From Fibrobacter intestinalis (GTDB lineage Bacteria > Fibrobacterota > Fibrobacteria > Fibrobacterales > Fibrobacteraceae): 59,609 bases of DNA. Positions 4,158 to 59,609 of the stretch are shown here, piece after piece. Position numbers and translations under genes: made by a program. The stretch lies in assembly GCF_900167415.1 (NCBI RefSeq), contig NZ_FUWU01000015.1, forward strand, positions 1 through 59,609, written 5' to 3'. The notes under the pieces are model-generated. The model did not search any database, was not told the origin of the DNA, and saw only the letters and a program-made list of their open reading frames with translations. The first letter of the stretch is position 1. Every line of letters starts with the position of its first letter.

Positions 4158-5162
4158 CTATTCGCCCCGATTTCTTGCGGCGGTGGATTTGAACTTGTTG
4201 TGCTGGGCGAGCGAGCTGGAAAAAAAGTGGGTTCCGGAACCGTCGTCTTTGGCGACAAAGTAAAGGACGTCCGTTCGGGCTGGATGAAGGGTTGCGACAA
4301 TGGCTTTTTTCCCGGGATTGGAAATCGGACCCGGCATCAGTCCTTGAAACCGTCGCGTGTTGTAAGGGCTGTCGCTTTGCAGCTGGCTTTTGTAAATCGG
4401 GCCGGAGAGGTTCCGAAAGATAAAGCGAACCGTCGGATCGGCACCGAGCGGCATTCCGATGCGCAGCCGGTTCACAAAAACGCCGGCAATCAGATTTCGC
4501 TCTTCGATTTTTCCTGTTTCTTCTTCGACGACGCTGGCGAGGGTCAGTATTTTATGCCAGCCACCGAGTTCCTTCCACAGGGGGCTGTTTTCCTTTTCGA
4601 GTTCGTCGCGCAGTTTCAGGTTGGCTTTGACCATTTGGCGAGCGATGTCTTTTTCCGAAGCACCGTATTCAATGGGATAGGTGTCGGGAAGCAGGTAGCC
4701 TTCCAGACTTTCTGCATCGACGCCGAGTTCCTGGGCAAATTGCGGGTCGTGGACGAGGGCTTCCCATTTTGTGGAATCGAAAGCGGGAAAGGCTTTGCGG
4801 AAGTAGGCGGGCATTTCCCACGAAGCGCGACCTTCGGGAATGGTTACTTTGCGGTTTGCCGTCTTGCCGGAGGTCAGGATCTTTGCCATTCCAGCGATGC
4901 TAGTTTGGGGCGGAATGTCGTACCAGCCGGCCTTTAGCTGCAATTTTTGGATTCGGCACCACCAGGAAAAGAGCTTGGCATGGGAAATAAGTCCCTGTTT
5001 TACCAGCATATTGCCCGCTTTAAGGGCCGAAGAACCGCTTTCTACTTGGACGGTGGTCCAGGTCCGGTTGTCCGAAGGGGCAAAAATCTGGCGTTTGGCC
5101 CCATAAAGGGCGATGGCGGCCATCGATAGAAGAATAAATAGGGCGAAAACAAATTTTTTCAT
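4158..5162 (-). CDS. mltG: MltG endolytic murein transglycosylase
   Basis: A 334-residue single-pass inner-membrane enzyme of the YceG family, which cuts nascent glycan strands and terminates peptidoglycan polymerisation. A transmembrane helix (FVFALFILLSMAAIALYG) sits at the N-terminus. The family's catalytic region is clear: ASVVEEETGKIEERNLIAGV contains the active-site Glu, followed by FVNRLRIGMPLGADPTVRF. Near the C-terminus the NTRRFQGLMPGPISNPGKKA and YFVAKDDGSGTHFFS blocks are also typical. The start was placed at the MKKFVF codon; an in-frame ATG 36 bases upstream is possible. No tmk or holB neighbour is present. Confidence 0.93.
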   Translation of the reverse strand: MKKFVFALFILLSMAAIALYGAKRQIFAPSDNRTWTTVQVESGSSALKAGNMLVKQGLISHAKLFSWWCRIQKLQLKAGWYDIPPQTSIAGMAKILTSGKTANRKVTIPEGRASWEMPAYFRKAFPAFDSTKWEALVHDPQFAQELGVDAESLEGYLLPDTYPIEYGASEKDIARQMVKANLKLRDELEKENSPLWKELGGWHKILTLASVVEEETGKIEERNLIAGVFVNRLRIGMPLGADPTVRFIFRNLSGPIYKSQLQSDSPYNTRRFQGLMPGPISNPGKKAIVATLHPARTDVLYFVAKDDGSGTHFFSSSLAQHNKFKSTAARNRGE

Positions 5163-7768: not shown

Positions 7769-8313
7769 TGTTTTTTCCTTTGTGCTGTCCACTCTTCTTT
7801 TGTCAAAAGGCTGATGAGGCAGGTCCGGGTTTCGTTTAGCAAGGGAACGGGGGAGTTCCTGTCGGTGTGATGGTGGGAAAATCCGCATTTTTCCTGGACG
7901 CGTCTGGATTTTGTGTTGCCTTCGTAGGAGCCGCACCAGATTGCCGAAAGATTCAGCTCTTCAAATCCTCGGCGAATAAGTTCGCTCGCCGCTTCGGGAA
8001 TGTAGCCGTTTCCCCAGAAAGGCTTTCCTATCCAATAGCCCAGTTCGCATTCGCTGTCGCTTGTTGTCAAGTCAGAGCGTCCGTTGGGAATGAGTTCAAT
8101 CGCTCCGATAGCTTTTTCGTCTTTTTGGCAGACGGCGTAGCATTTCACTCCGCAAAAAACGGATTCGATAATGCTGCGGCTTTCTTAGACGTTTTGGTGG
8201 GGCGGCCATCCGGCGATGTATCCTACGTCGGAATCCTTGGCGTATTCGTATAGATTTTCCGCATCGTCTTTCTTCCAAGGGCGAAGAATCAATCGTTTCG
8301 TTTTCAATATCAT
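7765..8313 (-). pseudogene. GNAT acetyltransferase gene interrupted by an in-frame TAA
   Basis: Reading from the ATG at 8311-8313 gives [20 protein letters not shown], a typical GNAT N-terminus, up to [12 protein letters not shown] at 8185-8187 follows, and then in the same frame ESRSIIESVF and the rest of a normal GNAT domain (ELGYWIGKPFWGNGYIPEAA, NTKSRRVQEKCGF). A single base change from GAA to TAA would explain it, as the family has an acidic residue there. Translation of only the 3' part from a GTG at 8148 would lack the first strands. It overlaps the next gene by four bases and so belongs to the same transcription unit. Confidence 0.78.
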
Positions 8314-8463
8314 GCAAATCCTTGAGTTTATAGGCTCTTCTAAAAATCCATTTTCAAAAAATCGGTTGTATTCGAGTGGCTCGGGATTAATGATTGGTGG
8401 GCTTCGGGTTCCGCGCTCGTAGCTCGAACTCGTCGAATCATTTCATCAAAGCTCCGTTAAAAT

Positions 8464-16436: not shown

Positions 16437-17006
16437 AGGCGAAATCGTGTTTTTATAAAATTAACTTTTTGGGCATCTCTAGATAGTTGGTAGTTATCAG
16501 TTTTCAGTTGTTTGTTTTCAGTTATCAGTCTGCATTGTCTATCTAACCACGAATCCCTTTTCCCTTCACGCTGCTTGCCGCCCTTCGATTGGTTCGACAA
16601 ACGGTTGCTGAGCTTGTCGAAGCATTCTCCAAAGCCATTTTTAGAGATTGCCTTTTTTTGGGGGGATTATATACAATCTTCCTCCAAATTCTCACAAATA
16701 AAATTTTTTTCAAAGCGTGAATTTCCTTTTCACAAGGGGAATTTCTTCTCGCAGAGTGCGAGGTGCTCGCTTTCCCATGAGCCTTGGGAACTTGTTCCCT
16801 TAGGCGAATTGTGCAGCGCCCCATGAGCCTTGGAAGCTTGCTTCCCTAGACGAATTGTCCCTTGCAGGGATACTTCAACTATGGAATCGGAGATTCCAAG
16901 TTTCAGGGATGCAAAGCCCAAGCAATCTGTGCTGGCACCTCGTCATTGCGAGGAGCGTAGCGACGTGGCAATCTTGTCTGCGGGAAAGGATTGCTTCTCC
17001 ACATAG

Positions 17007-17048
17007 AGGATAACTCCACTAAGTCAATAAATTGACAAGTGTCGTATA
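17007..17048 (+). repeat. Hairpin repeat element, copy 1
   Basis: The sequence ATAACTCCACTAAGTCAATA continues with AATTGACAAGTGTCGTATA. CACT pairs with AGTG, and GTCAAT with ATTGAC, around a two-base tip. A nearly identical copy sits at 48138-48180, and a variant with a different but still paired tip at 48086-48129. Confidence 0.7.
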
Positions 17049-17468
17049 ACCCCTCCGGGGTTCGGGGTGACGGTCGCTTTCAAATATGACTGATTTTCTC
17101 CTTGGTGGGTACGCAATGACGAATACTACTAGTCTCCTCGAAGATAATGCCTGCAAACAAGCTTGCGGCGCAACATTCGCCTTGCACGCTTTTGCGAAGG
17201 CTCCCTTCCAGGGACAATTCGTCTAAAAGAGTAAAACTCTTAAGACTCATAGGCAGCCCCCTTATCCCTTCACCCTATCCCCCGCCACGCTTTGCTGTGG
17301 GAAATTTTGAATTCTAGAGCGGAATAAGTTGTATTACGTTGCGAGAGGGTGAACTTCTTTTCAAACGGGGCTTTTTCTTTCACAAGGGGAACTCAGTTAT
17401 CAGTTCCAACACACAACTTTCAACTAACCCCTAATCACTAACCACTTACAAACAAATCGGGTGGAATT

Positions 17469-47618: not shown

Positions 47619-48085
47619 GTGAAGGTGGGGAGTGGGAGTTAGGAGTGGTCAGCAGCTAGCGGCTAGCGCCCTTCGACAAGCTCAGGGATCGCTGGTTAGT
47701 GCACCTCGGCAAGCTCGGTAACCGCTTGTCGAACTAGCCGAACCATGGCTAGTTGGAAGTTGGGAGAAACGGCTGTCTGCCGTTTTTTTCGCATTTTGGG
47801 TTTTCGACTAAATGAAAAATGCCTGTTTCGATGCAAAGTCGGCCTTTGTCAAATGGAACACAAGTCATCGCCAGCGGTACGTCATTGCGAGCAAGGCGAA
47901 GCAATCCTTGCTGGCATCCCGTCATTGCGAGGAGCGTAGCGACCCATGAGCCTTGAAAGCTCTGCTTCCTTTAGGCGAATTGTCCCTTCCAGGGATACTT
48001 CAACTACGGAATCGGAGATTCCGAGTTTCAGGGATGCGCCGCCGCGGCAATCCTATCTGCAAAAAAAGGATTGCTTCTACACTTC

Positions 48086-48129
48086 GAGTATAACTCCACT
48101 AAGGTAACAAAGTTACCAAGTGTCGTATA
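48086..48129 (+). repeat. Hairpin repeat element, variant tip
   Basis: ATAACTCCACTAAGGTAACA continues AAGTTACCAAGTGTCGTATA. The tip stem is GGTAAC with GTTACC around AAA, while outer CACT/AGTG and flanks match the other two copies. Confidence 0.7.
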
Positions 48130-48137
48130 TCCACATA

Positions 48138-48180
48138 GAGGATAACTCCACTAAGTCAATAAATTGACAAGTGTCGTATA
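48138..48180 (+). repeat. Hairpin repeat element, copy 2
   Basis: Nearly identical to 17007-17048, including the GTCAAT/ATTGAC tip and the flanks CACATAGAG upstream and ACCCCT downstream. Confidence 0.7.
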
Positions 48181-48282
48181 ACCCCTGTGGGGTTCGCAAT
48201 GACGGAAAAACGCCAGACAGCAAGTCGCCAGAGTACGTCTTTTTTTGCAAACTTTGCACCGTAATGTAACAAAGGAGACGCG

Positions 48283-49345
48283 ATGCGGTTCAAGGAAGCG
48301 GCGGAAAGGTGGTTTGAAAAGAAGTGTGCGAGTTGGAGCGAGAGTTCCCGGGCGAAATACGAAAATATTCTGCGGAAGCATTTGCTGCCGTATTTTGGCG
48401 AAGTGGAGCTGGTCGGTTTCGATTCGGCTCTCGTGAGGGATTTTGCGGAGCGCGCTCTCGGAGAGCTTGCGGTTTCGACGCGGCGTTTCGTGCTGGCGAC
48501 CTTGCAGCAGATTTTGAAATCGGCACTTTCGCCGGAGGATTTGGGTGCGCTGGATTTTCCCCACGCTGGGACGACTCGGAAAGGGGAAGCGGTTCCCCTC
48601 TCACCCGAGGAACTGGCCGCGCTGATTCGTGCGCTGGAAAAGAACGAAAATCCAAAACTGGAAAATTCGGCCCGGAGTCTCTTGCTGATTGCATTCACCG
48701 GGATGCGCCTCGGCGAAGTTTGCGCCCTGAAATTTTCGGACTTCGACTTTGTGCGGAACACCATCAAAATTCACGGGACGCTGGAACGGCTGCCCAATGA
48801 CAAGGGCAAAACGGCAAAAGGCGCAGACGAAAATGCCGCTGCCGAAATGGAAAATGCCAAGCCCCCGAAGACCGTCCGCAAGCTCTGCCCGCCGAAAAGC
48901 GAAAGCGGCCATCGGGAAATCCCCATCCCGGAAAATCTGCTCCAATGGCTGAAAAAAAATGGCGAGGGAAAATTCCCCGGACAGTTTTCTGGTGAAGCAC
49001 GACCAGCGGACATTGCAGAACCACTTCAAGCGCTTCCTGAAAATCGCCGGGGTTGCGGAAACGAACGTTCATGTGTTACGGCATACCTTCGCCACCCACG
49101 CGCTGACTTCCGGGGCGGACCTGAAAACCCTCTCGGCGACCCTCGGCCATGCCAGCACCCACACGACTCTCGACCTTTACGTTCACCCGACTTTCGAGAG
49201 CAAGCGGCGCGTGCAGGAGGCGTTTTGGAAATTCGTGAAGAACCCGAAGCGGGCGCAAAATCAAAGCGGGCAAAGAAATTGTGATTATTGGAACGAAAAT
49301 TTTGGAAAATCGGGAGGTTCCGGGCGCAAGCCGACCCAGCAGTGA
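48283..49345 (+). pseudogene. Tyrosine recombinase split by a frameshift at an A8 tract
   Basis: The first frame (48283 on, GGAG ribosome site) gives an integrase N-terminal SAM-like domain (FKEAAERWFEKKCASWSESS) and catalytic Arg I in AFTGMRLGEVCALKFSD, reaching LLQWLKKN at the run of eight A (48952-48959). Past it this frame is nonsense to 49284. The next frame, entered if one A is skipped, carries the rest: QRTLQNHFKRFLKIAG, HVLRHTFATHAL with HxxR, TLGHAS, and the Tyr in TTLDLYVHPT, ending at 49345. Either a disabled gene or one read by slippage on A8. No attachment site or tRNA is seen nearby. Confidence 0.8.
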
Positions 49346-49915: not shown

Positions 49916-49918
49916 ATG

Positions 49919-50551
49919 ATGAAACATTCTTATGATCGTCCGATAAACGACAAGAAGGAGTACGAAGCTTTGTTTCCCTCAAATCATTATGAAAAAGCTT
50001 ACGAACGTGCCGCTCAAACACGGGAATTTGAAATTAAACTTTATTGGGAACGGGCGAAGTATTTTTGGGCATTCATCACAACCATTTACGTCGCTTATTA
50101 CAACGTCTTGATCAGCATTTACGATAAGGCTCACGGAAAATTTCCTTTACTGGTTCTATCCGGATTGGGACTGTTCTTTGCCATCGCATGGATTCTAGTC
50201 GCCAAAGGTTCCAAACATTGGCAAGAGAATTGGGAACATCACATTGCCTTGCTGGAAGACAAGGTGACTGGCCCGCTTTTTAAAATTTACAAAGCGAATT
50301 CCTTTTCCGTTTCCAAGGTCAACTTGATTGCCGGTTATGTGGTAGCGTTTTGTGCGGCAGGATTGTTCGCTTATGAAGGGGTGGAATTTTGCCGAAAATC
50401 CTTTGTCAAAGAAATTTCTTTTGCGTTCTATATCGGCATCTTGGTGGTGGCGGCCATAGGAATTATCGCCTTTATATTCAACGCCCGGGGAAATGTTAAA
50501 ACAAAAGAAAAGGAAATCGTCTTTGACTTATTCTCGGTGAAGGGGAAATGA
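49919..50551 (+). CDS. Four-helix membrane protein, RipA-like family suspected
   Basis: A 210-residue membrane protein with a soluble N-terminal helix region (EKAYERAAQTREFEIKLYWE), then two pairs of membrane helices (about 48-70, 78-97, 137-158 and 170-190). GSKHWQENWEHHIALLEDKV between the pairs is its most distinctive stretch and resembles, as I recall, small RipA-type octameric membrane proteins found in mobile or defence-like regions. Two adjacent ATGs exist; the second has better spacing to GAGG. It overlaps the next gene by four bases. Confidence 0.6.
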   Translation: MKHSYDRPINDKKEYEALFPSNHYEKAYERAAQTREFEIKLYWERAKYFWAFITTIYVAYYNVLISIYDKAHGKFPLLVLSGLGLFFAIAWILVAKGSKHWQENWEHHIALLEDKVTGPLFKIYKANSFSVSKVNLIAGYVVAFCAAGLFAYEGVEFCRKSFVKEISFAFYIGILVVAAIGIIAFIFNARGNVKTKEKEIVFDLFSVKGK

Positions 50552-53706: not shown

Positions 53707-54756
53707 ATGACTCTGCATGATTTTAGAAATCCCATTTTCGCACTCGCCATTCTCGCCATCGTTTTCCTCGCCGCCTGTGGCGACGATAGCGGATCTTCCG
53801 CCAGCGGGAACGCCATCCCCGAAGCGGACCCCAATGCGACCCTTGTTTCTCAGGTTCCTGTGGGGGATGTTTACTCGGACATGACTGTCCGCGATGCAAA
53901 CGGCAATGTGGTGGGCGTATTTGACCCGAACACAGGCTACATCACGCTGAGCGATGGAAATGTCGTGACGATGAATGGGGGACTGATTTTGGCCATATCT
54001 TCAAATTCGTTGTTGCCAGAAGTTTCATCCTCTAGCGTAGAAGTTGCGTCGAGCTCGTCTATGACAGAAGTAAGCTCCTCGTCGATGGAAGTCGTTTCCA
54101 GTAGTTCTAGTTCATCTGCAATTTCTTACGGAACTCTCACGGATGCCCGCGATGGTCAGTTCTACAAGACCGTGAAAATCGGCGAGCAAATTTGGATGGC
54201 GGAGAACTTGAACTATGATTACAATGGAGGAACCGCTAAAAGTTACTGCTACAACGACGAGCCGGATTCCTGCGCCAAGTATGGACGGCTCTACACTTGG
54301 GCTGCAGCGATGGACAGTGTCGGGGTCTTTGGCGATGGCGGCAAGGGTTGCGGTGGTTATGGTGTGACATGTAAGGCGACGTATCCGGTTCGCGGTGTCT
54401 GCCCCGAAGGTTGGCATCTGCCCAGTGATGGGGAATGGCAGACTCTGTTTAAGACTGTCGGCGGTACGGGTGTCGCAGGAACAAAGCTGAAGTCCACTAG
54501 TGGCTGGGATGATTATGATGGCAAAAGCGGCAACGGATCGGACAAATACGGCTTTTCCGTGTTGCCGGCGGGCGACCGCCGTGTCGGTGGCAGTTACCTC
54601 GACGCCGGCGAGCACGCCTTCTTCTGGAGTTCTACGGGGGGTAGCAGCTACAATGCGTACTACTGGTACTTCAGCTTCGACATCGAGGACGTGAACTCGG
54701 ATTACGACAGCAAGCACCACGGGTTTTCCGTACGTTGCCTCAGGGACCTCAACTAG
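53707..54756 (+). CDS. FISUMP-domain lipoprotein with hypervariable C-terminus (copy A)
   Basis: A 349-residue lipoprotein (lipobox FLAAC near residue 24). Residues 35-95 hold a short beta region (LVSQVPVGDVYSDMTVRDAN, GYITLSDG). A Ser-rich linker of about 45 residues follows, then the Fibrobacter major paralogous domain: DARDGQFYKTVKIGEQIWMA, ENLNY, AKYGRLYTW, RGVCPEGWHLPSDGEWQ, GFSVLPAG and GFSVRCLRD. The domain is probably a C-type-lectin-like fold; the stretch between LPAG and GFSVRC is hypervariable among copies. It is probably surface-exposed. A GC-rich hairpin follows the stop. Confidence 0.88.
   Translation: MTLHDFRNPIFALAILAIVFLAACGDDSGSSASGNAIPEADPNATLVSQVPVGDVYSDMTVRDANGNVVGVFDPNTGYITLSDGNVVTMNGGLILAISSNSLLPEVSSSSVEVASSSSMTEVSSSSMEVVSSSSSSSAISYGTLTDARDGQFYKTVKIGEQIWMAENLNYDYNGGTAKSYCYNDEPDSCAKYGRLYTWAAAMDSVGVFGDGGKGCGGYGVTCKATYPVRGVCPEGWHLPSDGEWQTLFKTVGGTGVAGTKLKSTSGWDDYDGKSGNGSDKYGFSVLPAGDRRVGGSYLDAGEHAFFWSSTGGSSYNAYYWYFSFDIEDVNSDYDSKHHGFSVRCLRDLN
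54574..54726 (+). other. Candidate DGR variable region A
   Basis: Codons from the LPAG-G end to the GFSVRC block. Compared with 56174-56332 and 56891-57043, most differing codons keep the third base (C or T) and change positions 1 and 2 only: TAC/GAC/AAC, TTC/TCC/AGC, GAC/GCC/GGC, AAC/TTC/TTC, GAC/CAC/TTC. Unvaried codons between them (GCG TAC, TGG, GTG, TCG, AAG, GGG) are identical. Confidence 0.55.
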
Positions 54757-54758
54757 GG

Positions 54759-54776
54759 GCGGGGTAGGGCCCCCGC
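54759..54776 (+). repeat. GC-rich inverted repeat just after copy A
   Basis: GCGGGG and CCCCGC pair across a 6-base loop, three bases past the stop codon of copy A and about 30 bases from the variable stretch. It is not followed by T. GC-rich hairpins at a comparable place help target recognition in known DGRs; here it is seen only after copy A. Confidence 0.5.
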
Positions 54777-54786
54777 TCCTAGCTGA

Positions 54787-54863
54787 GGCCTAGCCGTAGG
54801 CAAGGCCGCCCTTCCTTTTCCGCTGTTTTGCTGTAGTCACGACTATGGAACATTAGGAATTGT
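54787..54863 (+). repeat. Post-FISUMP repeat module, copy 1
   Basis: GGCCTAGCCGTAGGCAAGGC, then TTCCTTTTCCGCTG and GCTGTAGTCACGACTATGGA, ends ACATTAGGAATTGT. It matches 58859-58935 with few changes. It follows the FISUMP stop codon in both places. Confidence 0.8.
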
Positions 54864-54914
54864 CAGTGCTTCGGCACAACCCCAAAAATTCACCTAAAAA
54901 AAGGAGTAATCAAA

Positions 54915-55487
54915 ATGGAAACAATGAAAGAATCAATTCAAAAATTACTGCAATCTATTAATGCGAAGGATTTTAATATAGAAGGTCCTTTCCCAATAAA
55001 AGATTTGCAGGCTGGGAAAGTCGATGTTCCAAAATCTGCCGGAGTTTACTTTGTCGGCAAAATCGATGACACAAAATCCTTGCGGGCTTGTTCGGCAAAA
55101 GCTTGCAATCTCGAAAAGGGGACGCGTGTTAAATGGTATGAATTGGATTCGTTGGAGAAAAAATTGAACGCAGGCGATGTCGTTCTCTATATCGGGAAAG
55201 CGAATCCTGAATCGGAAGATTCTAAGTATGGTTTGAAAGACCGATTAAGGAATTATATGAAAAGCCAAGAAGATTTTCAAAAAGGAAAATCATCAAATCA
55301 TCAAGGTGGGCGCGCCATTTGGCAATTAGAAAATGCCAAAGAACTGGGCGTTTGCTGGATTCAAACCAAAGATGCAAGCGAAGCGAAAGAGCTGGAAAAA
55401 GCTCTGCTGAAAAAATACAAGGAAGACAATCCTAACGCTGGACTTGAAGGTCGCGAGGCTTATCCCTTCGCCAACTGGCGTTTATAA
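54915..55487 (+). CDS. GIY-YIG-like protein, copy 1
   Basis: A 190-residue cytoplasmic protein. The GIY and YIG motifs are GVYFVG (about 44) and VVLYIGKAN (about 93), followed by the conserved Arg in LKDRLRNYM and a candidate catalytic Glu in EAKELEKALLKKYKE. HQGGRAIWQLENA and the end YPFANWRL are shared with the copy at 57210. GIY-YIG folds cut or nick nucleic acids, but the substrate here is unknown and degenerate members exist. It is preceded by AAAAAAAGGAGTAATC, the same leader as copy 2, and ends 29 bases before a FISUMP lipoprotein gene. Confidence 0.72.
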   Translation: METMKESIQKLLQSINAKDFNIEGPFPIKDLQAGKVDVPKSAGVYFVGKIDDTKSLRACSAKACNLEKGTRVKWYELDSLEKKLNAGDVVLYIGKANPESEDSKYGLKDRLRNYMKSQEDFQKGKSSNHQGGRAIWQLENAKELGVCWIQTKDASEAKELEKALLKKYKEDNPNAGLEGREAYPFANWRL

Positions 55488-55516
55488 AAGAATAGCATGG
55501 CCATATAGGAGATTAT

Positions 55517-57073
55517 ATGAATCGGCACAAATTCAAGAAATCGGTTTTAGGTTTGTTGATAATGCTTTTCCTCGCCGCTTGCGGCGACAGCGGCTCTTCC
55601 GTGAATGGGGGACCGATTTCGGCCATATCTTCAAATTCGTTGTTGCCAGAAGTTTCATCCTCTAGCGTAGAAGTTGCGCCGAGCTCGTCTATGACAGAAG
55701 TAAGCTCCTCGTCGATGGAAGTCGTTTCCAGTAGTTCTAGTTCATCTGCAATTTCTTACGGAACTCTCACGGATGCCCGCGATGGTCAGTTCTACAAGAC
55801 CGTGACCATTGGAACCCAAACATGGATGGCGGAGAATTTGAATTATGAGACTGCCAATAGCTACTGCCCCAACGCCGCGCGGGATCTCTGCGTCAAGTAT
55901 GGCAGGCTCTACCTGTGGAGCACCGCCATGGACAGTGCCGGAGTCTTTAGCGACAGCGGCAAGGGCTGTGGTTTTGGCCTGACTTGTTCTGCAAAGGAAC
56001 CGGTTCGCGGAGTCTGCCCCGAAGGCTGGCACCTGCCCAGCAAAGAGGAATGGAATACGTTGTTCGCGGCTGTCGGTGGTGAGTATGTCGCAGGAACAAA
56101 GCTCAAGTCCAAGAGCGGTTGGCTCAATGATGGCAGCACGGACGAATACGGCTTTTCCGTGTTGCCGGCGGGCAGCCGCCTTGGTGGCGGTGACGGTTAC
56201 CACTACGCCGGCGAGCGCGCCGACTTCTGGACTTCTACGGAGGTCAGCAGCGACGATGCGTACTACTGGGAATTCAGCTCCGCCTACGGGCGCGTGTTCT
56301 CGGATTACCACTACCACAAGTACAGCGGGTATTCCGTACGTTGCCTCAGGGACTCGGGTGCTTTTAATGACTCTAGTGCATTTAATCAGAATACGGAGCC
56401 TGTTTCATCCTCTAGCGTAGAAGCTGTGTCGAGTTCATCTATCGATTATGGAGAGTTCACCGATTCCCGTGATGGTCAGGTTTACAAGACTGTGAAAATC
56501 GGCGAGCAAATTTGGATGGCGGAGAATTTGAAGTACGCCTACTTGCAGCCAACAAGTACAGAAGATTCCTCTAGCTTCTGCTACAGAAACGAACCGGATT
56601 CCTGCGCCAAATATGGACGGTTTTATTGGTGGAGTGCCGCGATGGACAGCGCCGGGGTCTTTAGCGATGGCGGCAAGGGCTGCGGCTACAAAGTAAAGTG
56701 CAATGCGACGGAATCGGTTCGAGGCGTTTGTCCGAAAGGTTGGCATTTGCCCAGCAATACGGAATGGAAGATTCTATTCGCGACCGTCGGCGACACGAGT
56801 ATTGCCGGAATACTCCTCAAGTCCAAGAGCGGCTGGTACAGTGATGGCTATGGCATGGACATTTACGGCTTTTCCGTGTTGCCAGCGGGCTACTGCGGTG
56901 GCACTGGCCATTACGGCAATGTCGGCAAGGGCGCTTACTTCTGGAGTTCTACGGAGGACGGCAGCAACGATGCGTACTTCTGGGGCTTCGACAGCGGCTA
57001 CGAGGGCGTGTTCTCGGGTTACTTCGACAAGAGCCTCGGGTATTCCGTCCGTTGCCTCAAGGACTCAGAGTGA
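55517..57073 (+). CDS. Double-domain FISUMP lipoprotein (copies B and C)
   Basis: A 518-residue lipoprotein (MNRHKFKKSVLGLLIML, lipobox LAAC). Unlike copy A it lacks the N-terminal beta region and goes directly to the Ser-rich linker, which is nearly identical to that of copy A over about 200 bases. Two FISUMP domains follow, joined by a second short Ser linker: B (about residues 82-280, ending GYSVRCLRDSG) and C (about 312-517, ending GYSVRCLKDSE). Both have the GVCPxGWHLPS, GFSVLPAG and FWxSTE blocks. Their C-terminal stretches carry the same codon-position pattern of variation as copy A. AGGAG precedes the start. Confidence 0.88.
   Translation: MNRHKFKKSVLGLLIMLFLAACGDSGSSVNGGPISAISSNSLLPEVSSSSVEVAPSSSMTEVSSSSMEVVSSSSSSSAISYGTLTDARDGQFYKTVTIGTQTWMAENLNYETANSYCPNAARDLCVKYGRLYLWSTAMDSAGVFSDSGKGCGFGLTCSAKEPVRGVCPEGWHLPSKEEWNTLFAAVGGEYVAGTKLKSKSGWLNDGSTDEYGFSVLPAGSRLGGGDGYHYAGERADFWTSTEVSSDDAYYWEFSSAYGRVFSDYHYHKYSGYSVRCLRDSGAFNDSSAFNQNTEPVSSSSVEAVSSSSIDYGEFTDSRDGQVYKTVKIGEQIWMAENLKYAYLQPTSTEDSSSFCYRNEPDSCAKYGRFYWWSAAMDSAGVFSDGGKGCGYKVKCNATESVRGVCPKGWHLPSNTEWKILFATVGDTSIAGILLKSKSGWYSDGYGMDIYGFSVLPAGYCGGTGHYGNVGKGAYFWSSTEDGSNDAYFWGFDSGYEGVFSGYFDKSLGYSVRCLKDSE
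56174..56332 (+). other. Candidate DGR variable region B
   Basis: Variable stretch of the first FISUMP domain. In the first block its codons read AGC CGC CTT GGT GGC, GAC GGT TAC CAC TAC, with CGC and GAC where copy A has CAC and TTC. One codon longer than copies A and C in each of the two sub-blocks. Confidence 0.55.
56891..57043 (+). other. Candidate DGR variable region C
   Basis: Variable stretch of the second FISUMP domain of the same gene, with TAC TGC GGT GGC ACT, TTC tgg GGC TTC GAC AGC, and TTC GAC aag AGC CTC before GGG TAT TCC. The frame ending is conserved (GGG TAT TCC GTC CGT TGC). Confidence 0.55.
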
Positions 57074-57209: not shown

Positions 57210-57797
57210 ATGGAAACAATGAAAGAAATCGAAGGACTCGTGCACTTAGGTTCTATCCAAAAATTTCAAAATTGCATGCCTCAAATTCGAGAAAGAATTC
57301 GAAATGTCCCCAAAAAGGATGTTCACCGGATTAAAGACTTGATTGCTAGCATCAAGAATAAGAATTGCGAAATCCCCGAAGCTCCCGGGCTTTATTTTGT
57401 CGGGCAGTGGACGGAGCCCCAAAATTTGACTTTATGCACCGCCGAGTCCCTTGAATACAAGGCGATAAAAGGCGGCTGGTTCGATAAAAAATGGGAAGCA
57501 GTCAATGAAAAATTGAAGCGAAATTCGAGATTGCTCTATATCGGCAAAGCCGAAAATCTAAATGACAGAGTTTCTTGCTATATGGAATTTGTCGATGACA
57601 TCGTAAAGGGCAAAACATCAAAAAAATCCCATCGTGGTGGACGTGCGATTTGCTTGCTAAAGGAAGTTCCTGAATTGGAAATCTTCTGGTTTTCCCTTTC
57701 TGGTTTGGATATCGATCCGGAAATTGTAGAAAAGCAGCTTCTCTTGAATTATAAGGCTGCACATCATGACTATCCCTTCGCCAACTGGCGTTTATGA
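57210..57797 (+). CDS. GIY-YIG-like protein, copy 2
   Basis: A 195-residue paralogue of the protein at 54915. It starts METMKEIEGL (copy 1 METMKESIQK) from the same AAAAAAAGGAG leader. GLYFVG and LLYIGKAENLNDRVSCYM give the GIY and YIG motifs and Arg; KKSHRGGRAICLLKEV and DYPFANWRL match copy 1. Between the two motifs the sequences differ strongly. A Glu (PEIVEKQLLLNYKAA) stands at the expected catalytic place. The stop is 23 bases before the start of the next FISUMP lipoprotein gene, with AGGAG in between. Confidence 0.72.
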   Translation: METMKEIEGLVHLGSIQKFQNCMPQIRERIRNVPKKDVHRIKDLIASIKNKNCEIPEAPGLYFVGQWTEPQNLTLCTAESLEYKAIKGGWFDKKWEAVNEKLKRNSRLLYIGKAENLNDRVSCYMEFVDDIVKGKTSKKSHRGGRAICLLKEVPELEIFWFSLSGLDIDPEIVEKQLLLNYKAAHHDYPFANWRL

Positions 57798-57820
57798 AGA
57801 ACGGCCATACAGGAGATCAT

Positions 57821-58843
57821 ATGAATCGGCACAAATTCAAGAAATCCATTTTAGGGTTAATGATAATGCTTTTTCTCGCCGCCTGCAGCGACAGCGGCTC
57901 TTCCGTGAATGGAAACACTATTCCCGAAGCAGACTCCAATACAACCCTTGTCTCTCAGGTTCCTGTGGGGGATGTTTACTCGGATTTGACCGTCCGCGAT
58001 GCAAACGGCAGTGTGGTGGGCGTATTTGATCCGAACACAGGCTACATCACGTTGAGCGATGGAAGAGTCGTGACAATGGACGGTAATTCGATTTTTGAGT
58101 CGTCATCCAGCTCGTCGGCAATCGTTTCTTCGTCCAGTGAAAAAGTTTCCAGCTCGTCTGTAACGGAAATCCAGGAAAAGCCGAACTGGAAATATCTGAA
58201 TCCATACATCTCCTACGGGATGTTTCAGGACTCCCGCGACGGTCAGGTTTACAAGACCGTGAAAATTGGCGATCAAATTTGGATGGCGGAGAATTTGAAT
58301 TACGCTTATTTGCAGCCAACAAGTACAGAAGTTTCCTCCAGTTTCTGCTACAGCAACAAGCCGGATTCTTGCGCCAAATACGGAAGGCTCTACCTTTGGA
58401 GTGCTGCCATGGACAGTGCCGGGGTCTTTGGCGATGGTGGCAAGGGCTGTGGTTATTATGGCAAAACTTGCTCTGCAAAGGAATCAATTCGCGGAGTCTG
58501 CCCCGAAGGCTGGCACCTGCCTAGTAATGCGGAATGGTGGACTTTGATTGAGACTATCGGCGACACGAGTGTCGCCGGGAAAAAGCTCAAATCCGCTAAC
58601 GGATGGTACAAAGGCGATAATGGTACGGATGAATACGGCTTTTCCGTGTTGCCTTCAGGATTTCTTTATGACTATGGGGCTTTTGCTAAAGTTGGTGAAT
58701 TTCCTCATTTTTGGACTTCTACGGAGGGGAGTAGCAGTCGCACATACGCTTGGCAACTTTACCATGACATTGGACGAGCAAAACCGTATACCGATATTAA
58801 AAATTATGGATTCTCGATTCGTTGCGTCAAGGATTTTGACTGA
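57821..58843 (+). CDS. FISUMP-domain lipoprotein (copy D)
   Basis: A 340-residue lipoprotein (MNRHKFKKSILGLMIMLFLA, lipobox FLAAC), with the beta region of copy A (VSQVPVGDVYSDLTVRDANG), Ser linker and one FISUMP domain (DSRDGQVYKTVKIGDQIWMA, RGVCPEGWHLPSNAEWWTL, GFSVLPSG, GFSIRCVKDFD). The ATG at 57821 was chosen for its AGGAG site and because it opens the signal peptide; the track-length start upstream lies in the GIY-YIG gene end. Its C-terminal stretch uses mixed codons (GCT AAA GTT GGT GAA) and does not share the NNC pattern of copies A-C. Confidence 0.88.
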   Translation: MNRHKFKKSILGLMIMLFLAACSDSGSSVNGNTIPEADSNTTLVSQVPVGDVYSDLTVRDANGSVVGVFDPNTGYITLSDGRVVTMDGNSIFESSSSSSAIVSSSSEKVSSSSVTEIQEKPNWKYLNPYISYGMFQDSRDGQVYKTVKIGDQIWMAENLNYAYLQPTSTEVSSSFCYSNKPDSCAKYGRLYLWSAAMDSAGVFGDGGKGCGYYGKTCSAKESIRGVCPEGWHLPSNAEWWTLIETIGDTSVAGKKLKSANGWYKGDNGTDEYGFSVLPSGFLYDYGAFAKVGEFPHFWTSTEGSSSRTYAWQLYHDIGRAKPYTDIKNYGFSIRCVKDFD

Positions 58844-59102: not shown

Positions 59103-59132
59103 CATCCAAAAATCTGGATGTCTTTTCTTTTT
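59103..59132 (+). terminator. Attenuator-like hairpin in the leader of the nuclease gene
   Basis: CATCCA and TGGATG pair across a 6-base loop and are followed by TCTTTTCTTTTTC, then the AAAGGAG ribosome site. A terminator-like structure lies inside the 5' leader. Confidence 0.5.
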
Positions 59133-59144
59133 CAAAGGAGCACT

Positions 59145-59609
59145 ATGCCCGCGCAAAATCCGCAATTCTCGCAAATCTCGCAATTTCCGCAAAATCCGTC
59201 CCTCGACAGGGCCCACGACAAGGGCACCGAAGCCGGGGAAAGCCGCATCCCGCCCATCCTCCGGGGGAAAACCTACCTGGACCCGCTCTACGACCCCGCC
59301 TTCCGCGCCTTCTTCTCCGACGAGGCCGCCCTGAAGGACTTTCTCGACGCCCTGCTCCGCCTGCCCCCGGGACGCCGCATCGAACGGCTCTCCTTCACTT
59401 TCGCGGACCCCGTGGAGTTCCGCATCCCCGGGCCGAAGACGGTGGTCTTCGACATCCACGCCTTCACCGAGGACGGACGCTTCCTGGACATCGAGATGCA
59501 GCGGGCGAAGCACTCCTTCCTCGTGGACCGGATGCTGCTCTACAGCGCGTTCCTCGCCATCAAGGGCAAGCAGGCGATGGAGTCCTCGCCGGAAAGCCTC
59601 TCCCTGGAA
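59145..59609 (+). CDS. PD-(D/E)XK nuclease / Rpn-like transposase, 3' part outside window
   Basis: The first 155 residues of a protein running off the window. A Gln- and Pro-rich N-terminal run (QNPQFSQISQFPQNPS) precedes the domain: YLDPLYDPAFRAFFSDEAAL, LKDFLDALLRLPPGRRIERL, then the nuclease core VVFDIHAFTEDGRFLDIEMQ with D and ExQ, and RAKHSFLVDRMLLYSAFLA. This is the layout of recombination-promoting nucleases of the Rpn family. The coding sequence is much richer in GC than its neighbours (most codons end in C or G), which suggests recent transfer. Strong promoter and AAAGGAG site. Confidence 0.85.
   Translation, partial: MPAQNPQFSQISQFPQNPSLDRAHDKGTEAGESRIPPILRGKTYLDPLYDPAFRAFFSDEAALKDFLDALLRLPPGRRIERLSFTFADPVEFRIPGPKTVVFDIHAFTEDGRFLDIEMQRAKHSFLVDRMLLYSAFLAIKGKQAMESSPESLSLE

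Follow-up and report, generated by a model that had tools for sequence, protein, structure and literature searches.

Three variable regions (VRs), A, B and C, in a 59,609-nucleotide stretch of Fibrobacter intestinalis DNA (the window; contig C64 in a genome of 3.29 Mb and 116 contigs) are almost certainly VRs of a chromosomal diversity-generating retroelement (DGR) whose cassette lies on contig C92 and whose template repeat (TR) has served remote targets, those in the window included. A first-pass annotation of the window had proposed this type of origin, and the reverse transcriptase (RT), the TR, the differences at template A sites and the A-only alleles of relatives all support it. In the proposed mechanism, the RT would copy TR RNA into cDNA that carries errors opposite A, and this mutated cDNA would replace matching VRs; one TR on C92 would have served targets across contigs, the three window VRs among them. 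The AAC and AAT codons of the TR would specify those residues that can change in a domain that is probably C-type-lectin-like, and homing would thus rewrite the binding face of surface lipoproteins while the scaffold codons are kept.

Window genes and the C92 cassette

The three window genes concerned lie on the forward strand, and all match FISUMP (Fib_succ_major; TIGR02145, PF09603) far above the curated cut-off. Target gene A (53707 to 54756) encodes a lipoprotein whose signal, with lipobox LAAC, is seen in the sequence, followed by a Ser-rich linker and a C-terminal FISUMP domain (TIGR02145, E 6e-62; PF09603, E 6e-34); VR A occupies positions 54549 to 54747. Target gene B/C (55517 to 57073) is a single lipoprotein gene with two FISUMP domains (two TIGR02145 stretches, E 8e-118) and one VR in each, B being internal (56149 to 56353) and C C-terminal (56866 to 57064). 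The three regions had been placed inside these repeats by the first-pass annotation, which drew them slightly too narrow. Gene D (57794 to 58843) encodes a FISUMP lipoprotein of the same family (TIGR02145, E 9e-59), and its C-terminus (58632 to 58834) is not VR-like. Between the FISUMP genes are two paralogous ORFs of about 190 residues (54915 to 55487 and 57213 to 57797), GIY-YIG-like by eye and with no Pfam match, and positions 49916 to 50551 encode a member of the 8xMP octameric membrane protein family (PF24838, E 1.5e-31). The same PD-(D/E)XK transposase repeat (PF12784) terminates both the window (59118 to 59609) and C92, and it probably breaks the assembly near FISUMP clusters.

Differences among A, B and C are concentrated at the first two codon positions. 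In the last block of the repeat (codons 31 to 57), 18 codons differ and 16 of these keep the third base, exactly as had been counted at first reading; over the whole repeat, a codon alignment of 66 codons has 38 that differ, 32 with the third base kept. Nor are third-position differences equal to the others after alignment, each pair of copies having 2 to 5 of them versus 33 to 44 at first and second positions. Copy D was rightly set apart: it has 39 to 40 third-position differences from each of A, B and C and no significant excess of change at template A (30/59 A sites versus 56/139 others, p 0.11), with many of its changes at third positions.

Neither an RT nor a template is present in the window, as first noted, and the genome-wide search proposed at that stage located both on C92, about 24 bases apart. 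A search of the genome with RVT_1 gave a single match, the C92 RT, and a search with copy A returned B and C, several further contigs and a match just 5ʹ of this RT. That match is the TR (198 bases; 8156 to 8354 of locus L031), which was identified by its match to the VRs, is A-rich with many AAC and AAT codons, and lies outside the target genes upstream of the RT start (from about 8380). The cassette consists, in order, of two FISUMP genes, a 262-codon ORF, the TR and the RT. No second template fitting A, B and C better was found among genome matches to copy A or among 16 templates from relatives. One candidate second template, C41:23956-24171, a C-terminal FISUMP piece with a stop, was rejected because it does not match and reads as a decayed gene end.

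The RT carries the motifs PIGNLTSQ and YVDD and has an RVT_1 match. Its best PDB match is 8ub7 (E 6e-32), titled as the RT of a DGR ribonucleoprotein; the best group II RT (2e-9) and retron RTs rank behind. Additionally, it matches a PHROG RT (E 6e-88) and resembles the RT region in Bordetella phage BMP-1, where VR1 of the tropism-switching cassette is annotated in the sequence record. Judged by these matches, the C92 RT belongs to the DGR clade. Beside the DGR, a 578-residue protein (L031:3269-5005) has a SIR2-like start (FIGAGAT) and Cys pairs, with no Pfam match above cut-off and no PADLOC match.

Situated between the VRs and the TR on C92, the 262-residue accessory ORF has no Pfam match of its own. 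Among 16 aligned homologues, at E up to 0.1, bAvd is found in 7, 23S_rRNA_IVP in 4 and MutS_I in 3 (best E 1e-6, 3e-7 and 0.001, respectively). In its AlphaFold model, an alpha/beta part at the N-terminus is followed by a C-terminal four-helix bundle, for which Foldseek finds Avd 4dwl and the Avd chains of 8ub7 (probability about 1.00, target TM about 0.7). The accessory protein is accordingly described as a MutS-I-like N-terminus joined to an Avd-like four-helix bundle; among the accessory proteins known from DGRs are Avd and MSL (PF01624) (PMC10053308). A homologous ORF is present in 18 of 20 RT loci of relatives, usually between VR and TR.

Adenine restriction across nine variable regions

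The adenine-directed, DGR-like signature first reported for A, B and C holds against the TR itself. Copy A differs at 28/59 template A sites versus 8/139 other sites (Fisher p 4e-11), B at 33/59 versus 10/139 (p 3e-13) and C at 33/59 versus 12/139 (p 3e-12). By template base, the three together differ at 94/177 A, 10/159 C, 11/147 G and 9/111 T sites, with 30/417 pooled non-A differences. Nine VRs align well to the TR: the three in the window, two on C92 and one each on C116, C53, C29 and C41. They are spread over six contigs, every one at a FISUMP domain and mostly in lipoproteins; read by eye, a lipobox-like signal is present in targets A, B/C, C92a, C116, C53 and C29 and a plain signal peptide in C92b and C41b. 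Tested singly, each of the nine shows excess change at template A (p 5e-9 to 5e-18). Pooled, they differ at 256/520 A sites versus 70/1240 others (C 25/472, G 24/438, T 21/330), with template A replaced by G (123), T (83) or C (50).

A DGR, by the criterion of Roux 2021, has at least 75% of TR–VR mismatches at template A (PMC8144416); the share is 256/326 (78.5%) for the pooled VRs and 94/124 (76%) for A, B and C. In the freshest VRs, V92b on C92 and V116 on C116, template A accounts for 27/29 and 30/31 mismatches. A repeat on C108 does not fit the TR pattern (p 0.10), and a second copy on C41 is A-biased yet has many further changes. Freshest of all, with one non-A mismatch, the C116 VR (L033:6016-6219) is thrown out of frame by a two-base GA insertion, and V41a on C41 is frameshifted through a deletion; these are possibly homing errors or assembly errors. 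Also on C116, a FISUMP gene (4610 to 5092, L033) has apparently lost its VR by deletion, so that the remaining gene runs straight into a piece of the hairpin repeat found after VRs.

Just past VR A, a GC-rich inverted repeat (54753 to 54782, forward strand) overlaps the stop codon and forms a 12-pair stem in the RNA fold. A shared 3ʹ block, a candidate homing signal (IMH), is seen at A and four other VRs, each followed within a few bases by a similar strong inverted repeat; among the nine, this hairpin is absent at B, C, V53 and V29. BPP-1 requires a hairpin structure after the VR at its target (PMC3240598), and the position of the present hairpin suggests by analogy that it may serve as a homing structure. 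It may equally be an intrinsic terminator.

Several features suggest that target genes travel. A 141-base element (window 48065 to 48205; also 16998 to 17073) contains two units of about 52 bases, each centred on a hairpin, and has about 30 full or partial matches in this genome at 90 to 100% identity. It folds better than shuffles (z -2.9), is not a tRNA or an Rfam family, and often lies just 5ʹ of a tyrosine recombinase, as in the window (48283 to 49345, apparently frameshifted); possibly it is a recombination site. Of the five VR contigs longer than 10 kb, four (C92, C64, C29 and C53, not C41) have the element at most about 7 kb from a VR, against about 27 places in a possibly incomplete genome-wide list; a rough binomial estimate on that basis is <0.01. 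Of the congeners, one (G102, a complete chromosome) has a single copy and four others have none. That copy is 99% identical, and 1.8 kb separates it from the VR whose A signature is clearest there (25/57 versus 11/141); an RT of the C92 type was not found in G102.

Natural alleles and the age of the window copies

A relative of the C92 RT occurs in 28 of 111 family genomes (E 1e-10); a contig scan with the C92 RT as single query gave four relatives only. One RT-bearing contig belongs to a Fibrobacter MAG from horse faeces (G047). A TR–VR pair was found in 17 cassettes of relatives, with 364/378 mismatches at template A (best pair each), and in 16 of these cassettes a further 18 VR places were checked, every one of which ends in a C-terminus of FISUMP type. 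Within the Fibrobacter group, one genome (G028) has four separate DGR cassettes with different templates (L097, L098, L099 and L100). In the horse-faeces MAG, a gene at L101 has an internal and a terminal VR, like window gene B/C, and all 32 of 32 mismatches of the internal VR are at template A.

Four orthologous cassette pairs have identical or nearly identical TRs, two of the pairs sharing one genome. In one pair, the TR has 0/198 differences while the VR differs at 24/64 A versus 0/134 non-A sites; in another, the values are 0/195 for the TR and 23/51 versus 0/144 for the VR. The VRs of the remaining two differ at 23/54 A versus 1/127 and 28/51 A versus 1/144 other sites. Moreover, the 3ʹ flanks beside VRs with A-site allelic differences are nearly unchanged in sister genomes. 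With alleles that differ almost purely at A sites and TRs that are identical or nearly so, these patterns are strong natural evidence that the relatives' cassettes are, or recently were, active. The allele comparison suggested by the first-pass annotation, of A against non-A sites, thus came out in favour of a DGR in the orthologous cassettes of relatives; it does not extend to the window loci.

The window copies themselves have more non-A mismatches to the current TR (A 8, B 10, C 12) than V92b (2) or V116 (1), so an older form of the TR probably wrote them. Across the nine VRs, most non-A mismatches are accounted for by nine positions, each of which departs from the TR in three or more VRs; with these positions excluded, 23 remain in 1240 comparisons. 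At TR position 113, a G, the repeats have A, T, C and G, as if this position had formerly been A. These alignments point to window copies that were probably written by an earlier TR that has changed since. Homing may still happen at the window copies, or A, B and C may be retired as targets.

As a variant of the main explanation and not its opposite, the window copies may be fossils, written by this DGR or by an older template form, at which homing has ended and ordinary evolution now proceeds. We rate this as quite possible, at somewhat under an even chance. The 8 to 12 non-A differences of each copy and the missing hairpin at B and C favour it, but differences common to at least three VRs argue for a changed template rather than decay, and private non-A mismatches number only 2 (A), 2 (B) and 5 (C). 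Furthermore, the hairpin is present after A, and an internal VR in a relative, at L101, is cleanly A-restricted. A comparison of VRs with and without the hairpin gave no clear difference in freshness. No orthologue of the window cluster was recognised in the complete congener G102, whose FISUMP genes are 64 to 79% alike.

Gene conversion among FISUMP copies, which would reshuffle blocks into a mosaic, could account for the long stretches of identity between copies, for their nearly identical hairpin repeats at the 3ʹ side and for the non-A differences that they share. Most AAC codons, however, carry single or double changes rather than swapped blocks, and conversion gives no reason for the preference for template A over the other three bases, so this explanation is highly improbable as the main source. 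A history of plain divergence between paralogues, in which ligand-binding codons were under positive selection and no retroelement took part, can be practically dismissed: the family is large, its binding loops are expected to vary and a recent split could explain third-position constancy, but A-restriction against a template beside a DGR RT, A-only allelic differences with near-unchanged 3ʹ flanks in sister genomes, and the example of ordinary divergence given by D all tell against it.

FISUMP domains as targets of directed hypermutation

With RT and template on another contig and A-restricted VRs, the DGR reading means that part of the FISUMP family undergoes, or has undergone, directed hypermutation. 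The FISUMP model matches 53 times in the genome, and the nine VRs are thus a minority within the family. FISUMP has been surveyed under "other cellulose-binding proteins", with 54 to 119 copies in most Fibrobacteria genomes examined (PMC4704652). In Foldseek searches with a model of the domain (pLDDT 88), the best matches were the Lcl C-terminal domain, ranked first at E 0.07, and 4eps; TaqVP and a number of C-type lectins were listed as well, no match being significant. The related Lcl_C Pfam model scores above cut-off for gene B/C only. The resemblance of the model to C-type lectin folds is weak; the variable domain may be C-type-lectin-like, and FISUMP targets would be displayed on the surface and bind ligands.

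DGRs, remote targets and Fib_succ_major targets are already known kinds. The C92 system resembles the Bordetella phage BPP-1 DGR (brt, avd, TR and the mtd VR) in its RT class, A-specific variation, TR beside the RT, Avd-like bundle and inverted repeat after a VR. Unlike BPP-1, in which the target is a tail fibre, it is chromosomal, has several remote VRs in FISUMP lipoproteins and joins the Avd-like part to a MutS-I-like part, and the loop of its hairpin departs from the GRNA consensus of the phage. Ye 2014 listed Fib_succ_major among DGR target domains in human gut metagenomes (PMC4159848), likewise in predicted lipoproteins. Whereas that study had nine metagenomic proteins, here the template, RT, accessory gene and remote targets come from one genome, and the host family, Fibrobacteraceae, is the one that gave the domain its name. 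Cyanobacterial DGRs similarly pair one cassette with paralogous C-terminal targets at dispersed genomic sites (PMC7517822); their targets join CLec and signalling domains and are mostly predicted to be cytosolic, whereas those described here are secreted and mostly lipoproteins. No description of the Fibrobacteraceae DGR repertoire was found in the literature searched, most subscription journals being outside its scope.

More speculatively, and with a probability that we consider rather low, much of the FISUMP family, which numbers dozens to perhaps more than 200 candidates per Fibrobacteraceae genome, could be standing and fossil DGR output. Targets would be hypermutated and copied, would travel with integrase-linked elements and, once contact with a template was lost, would become fixed as ordinary binding proteins. 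The present system is a further cellular DGR, one that has many remote targets and in which an Avd-like part is fused to a MutS-like part. The FISUMP family of paralogues, which takes its name from Fibrobacter, is large and poorly understood, and hypermutation at defined codons in a subset of its members indicates that these domains probably bind something changeable and points to the residues that make contact.
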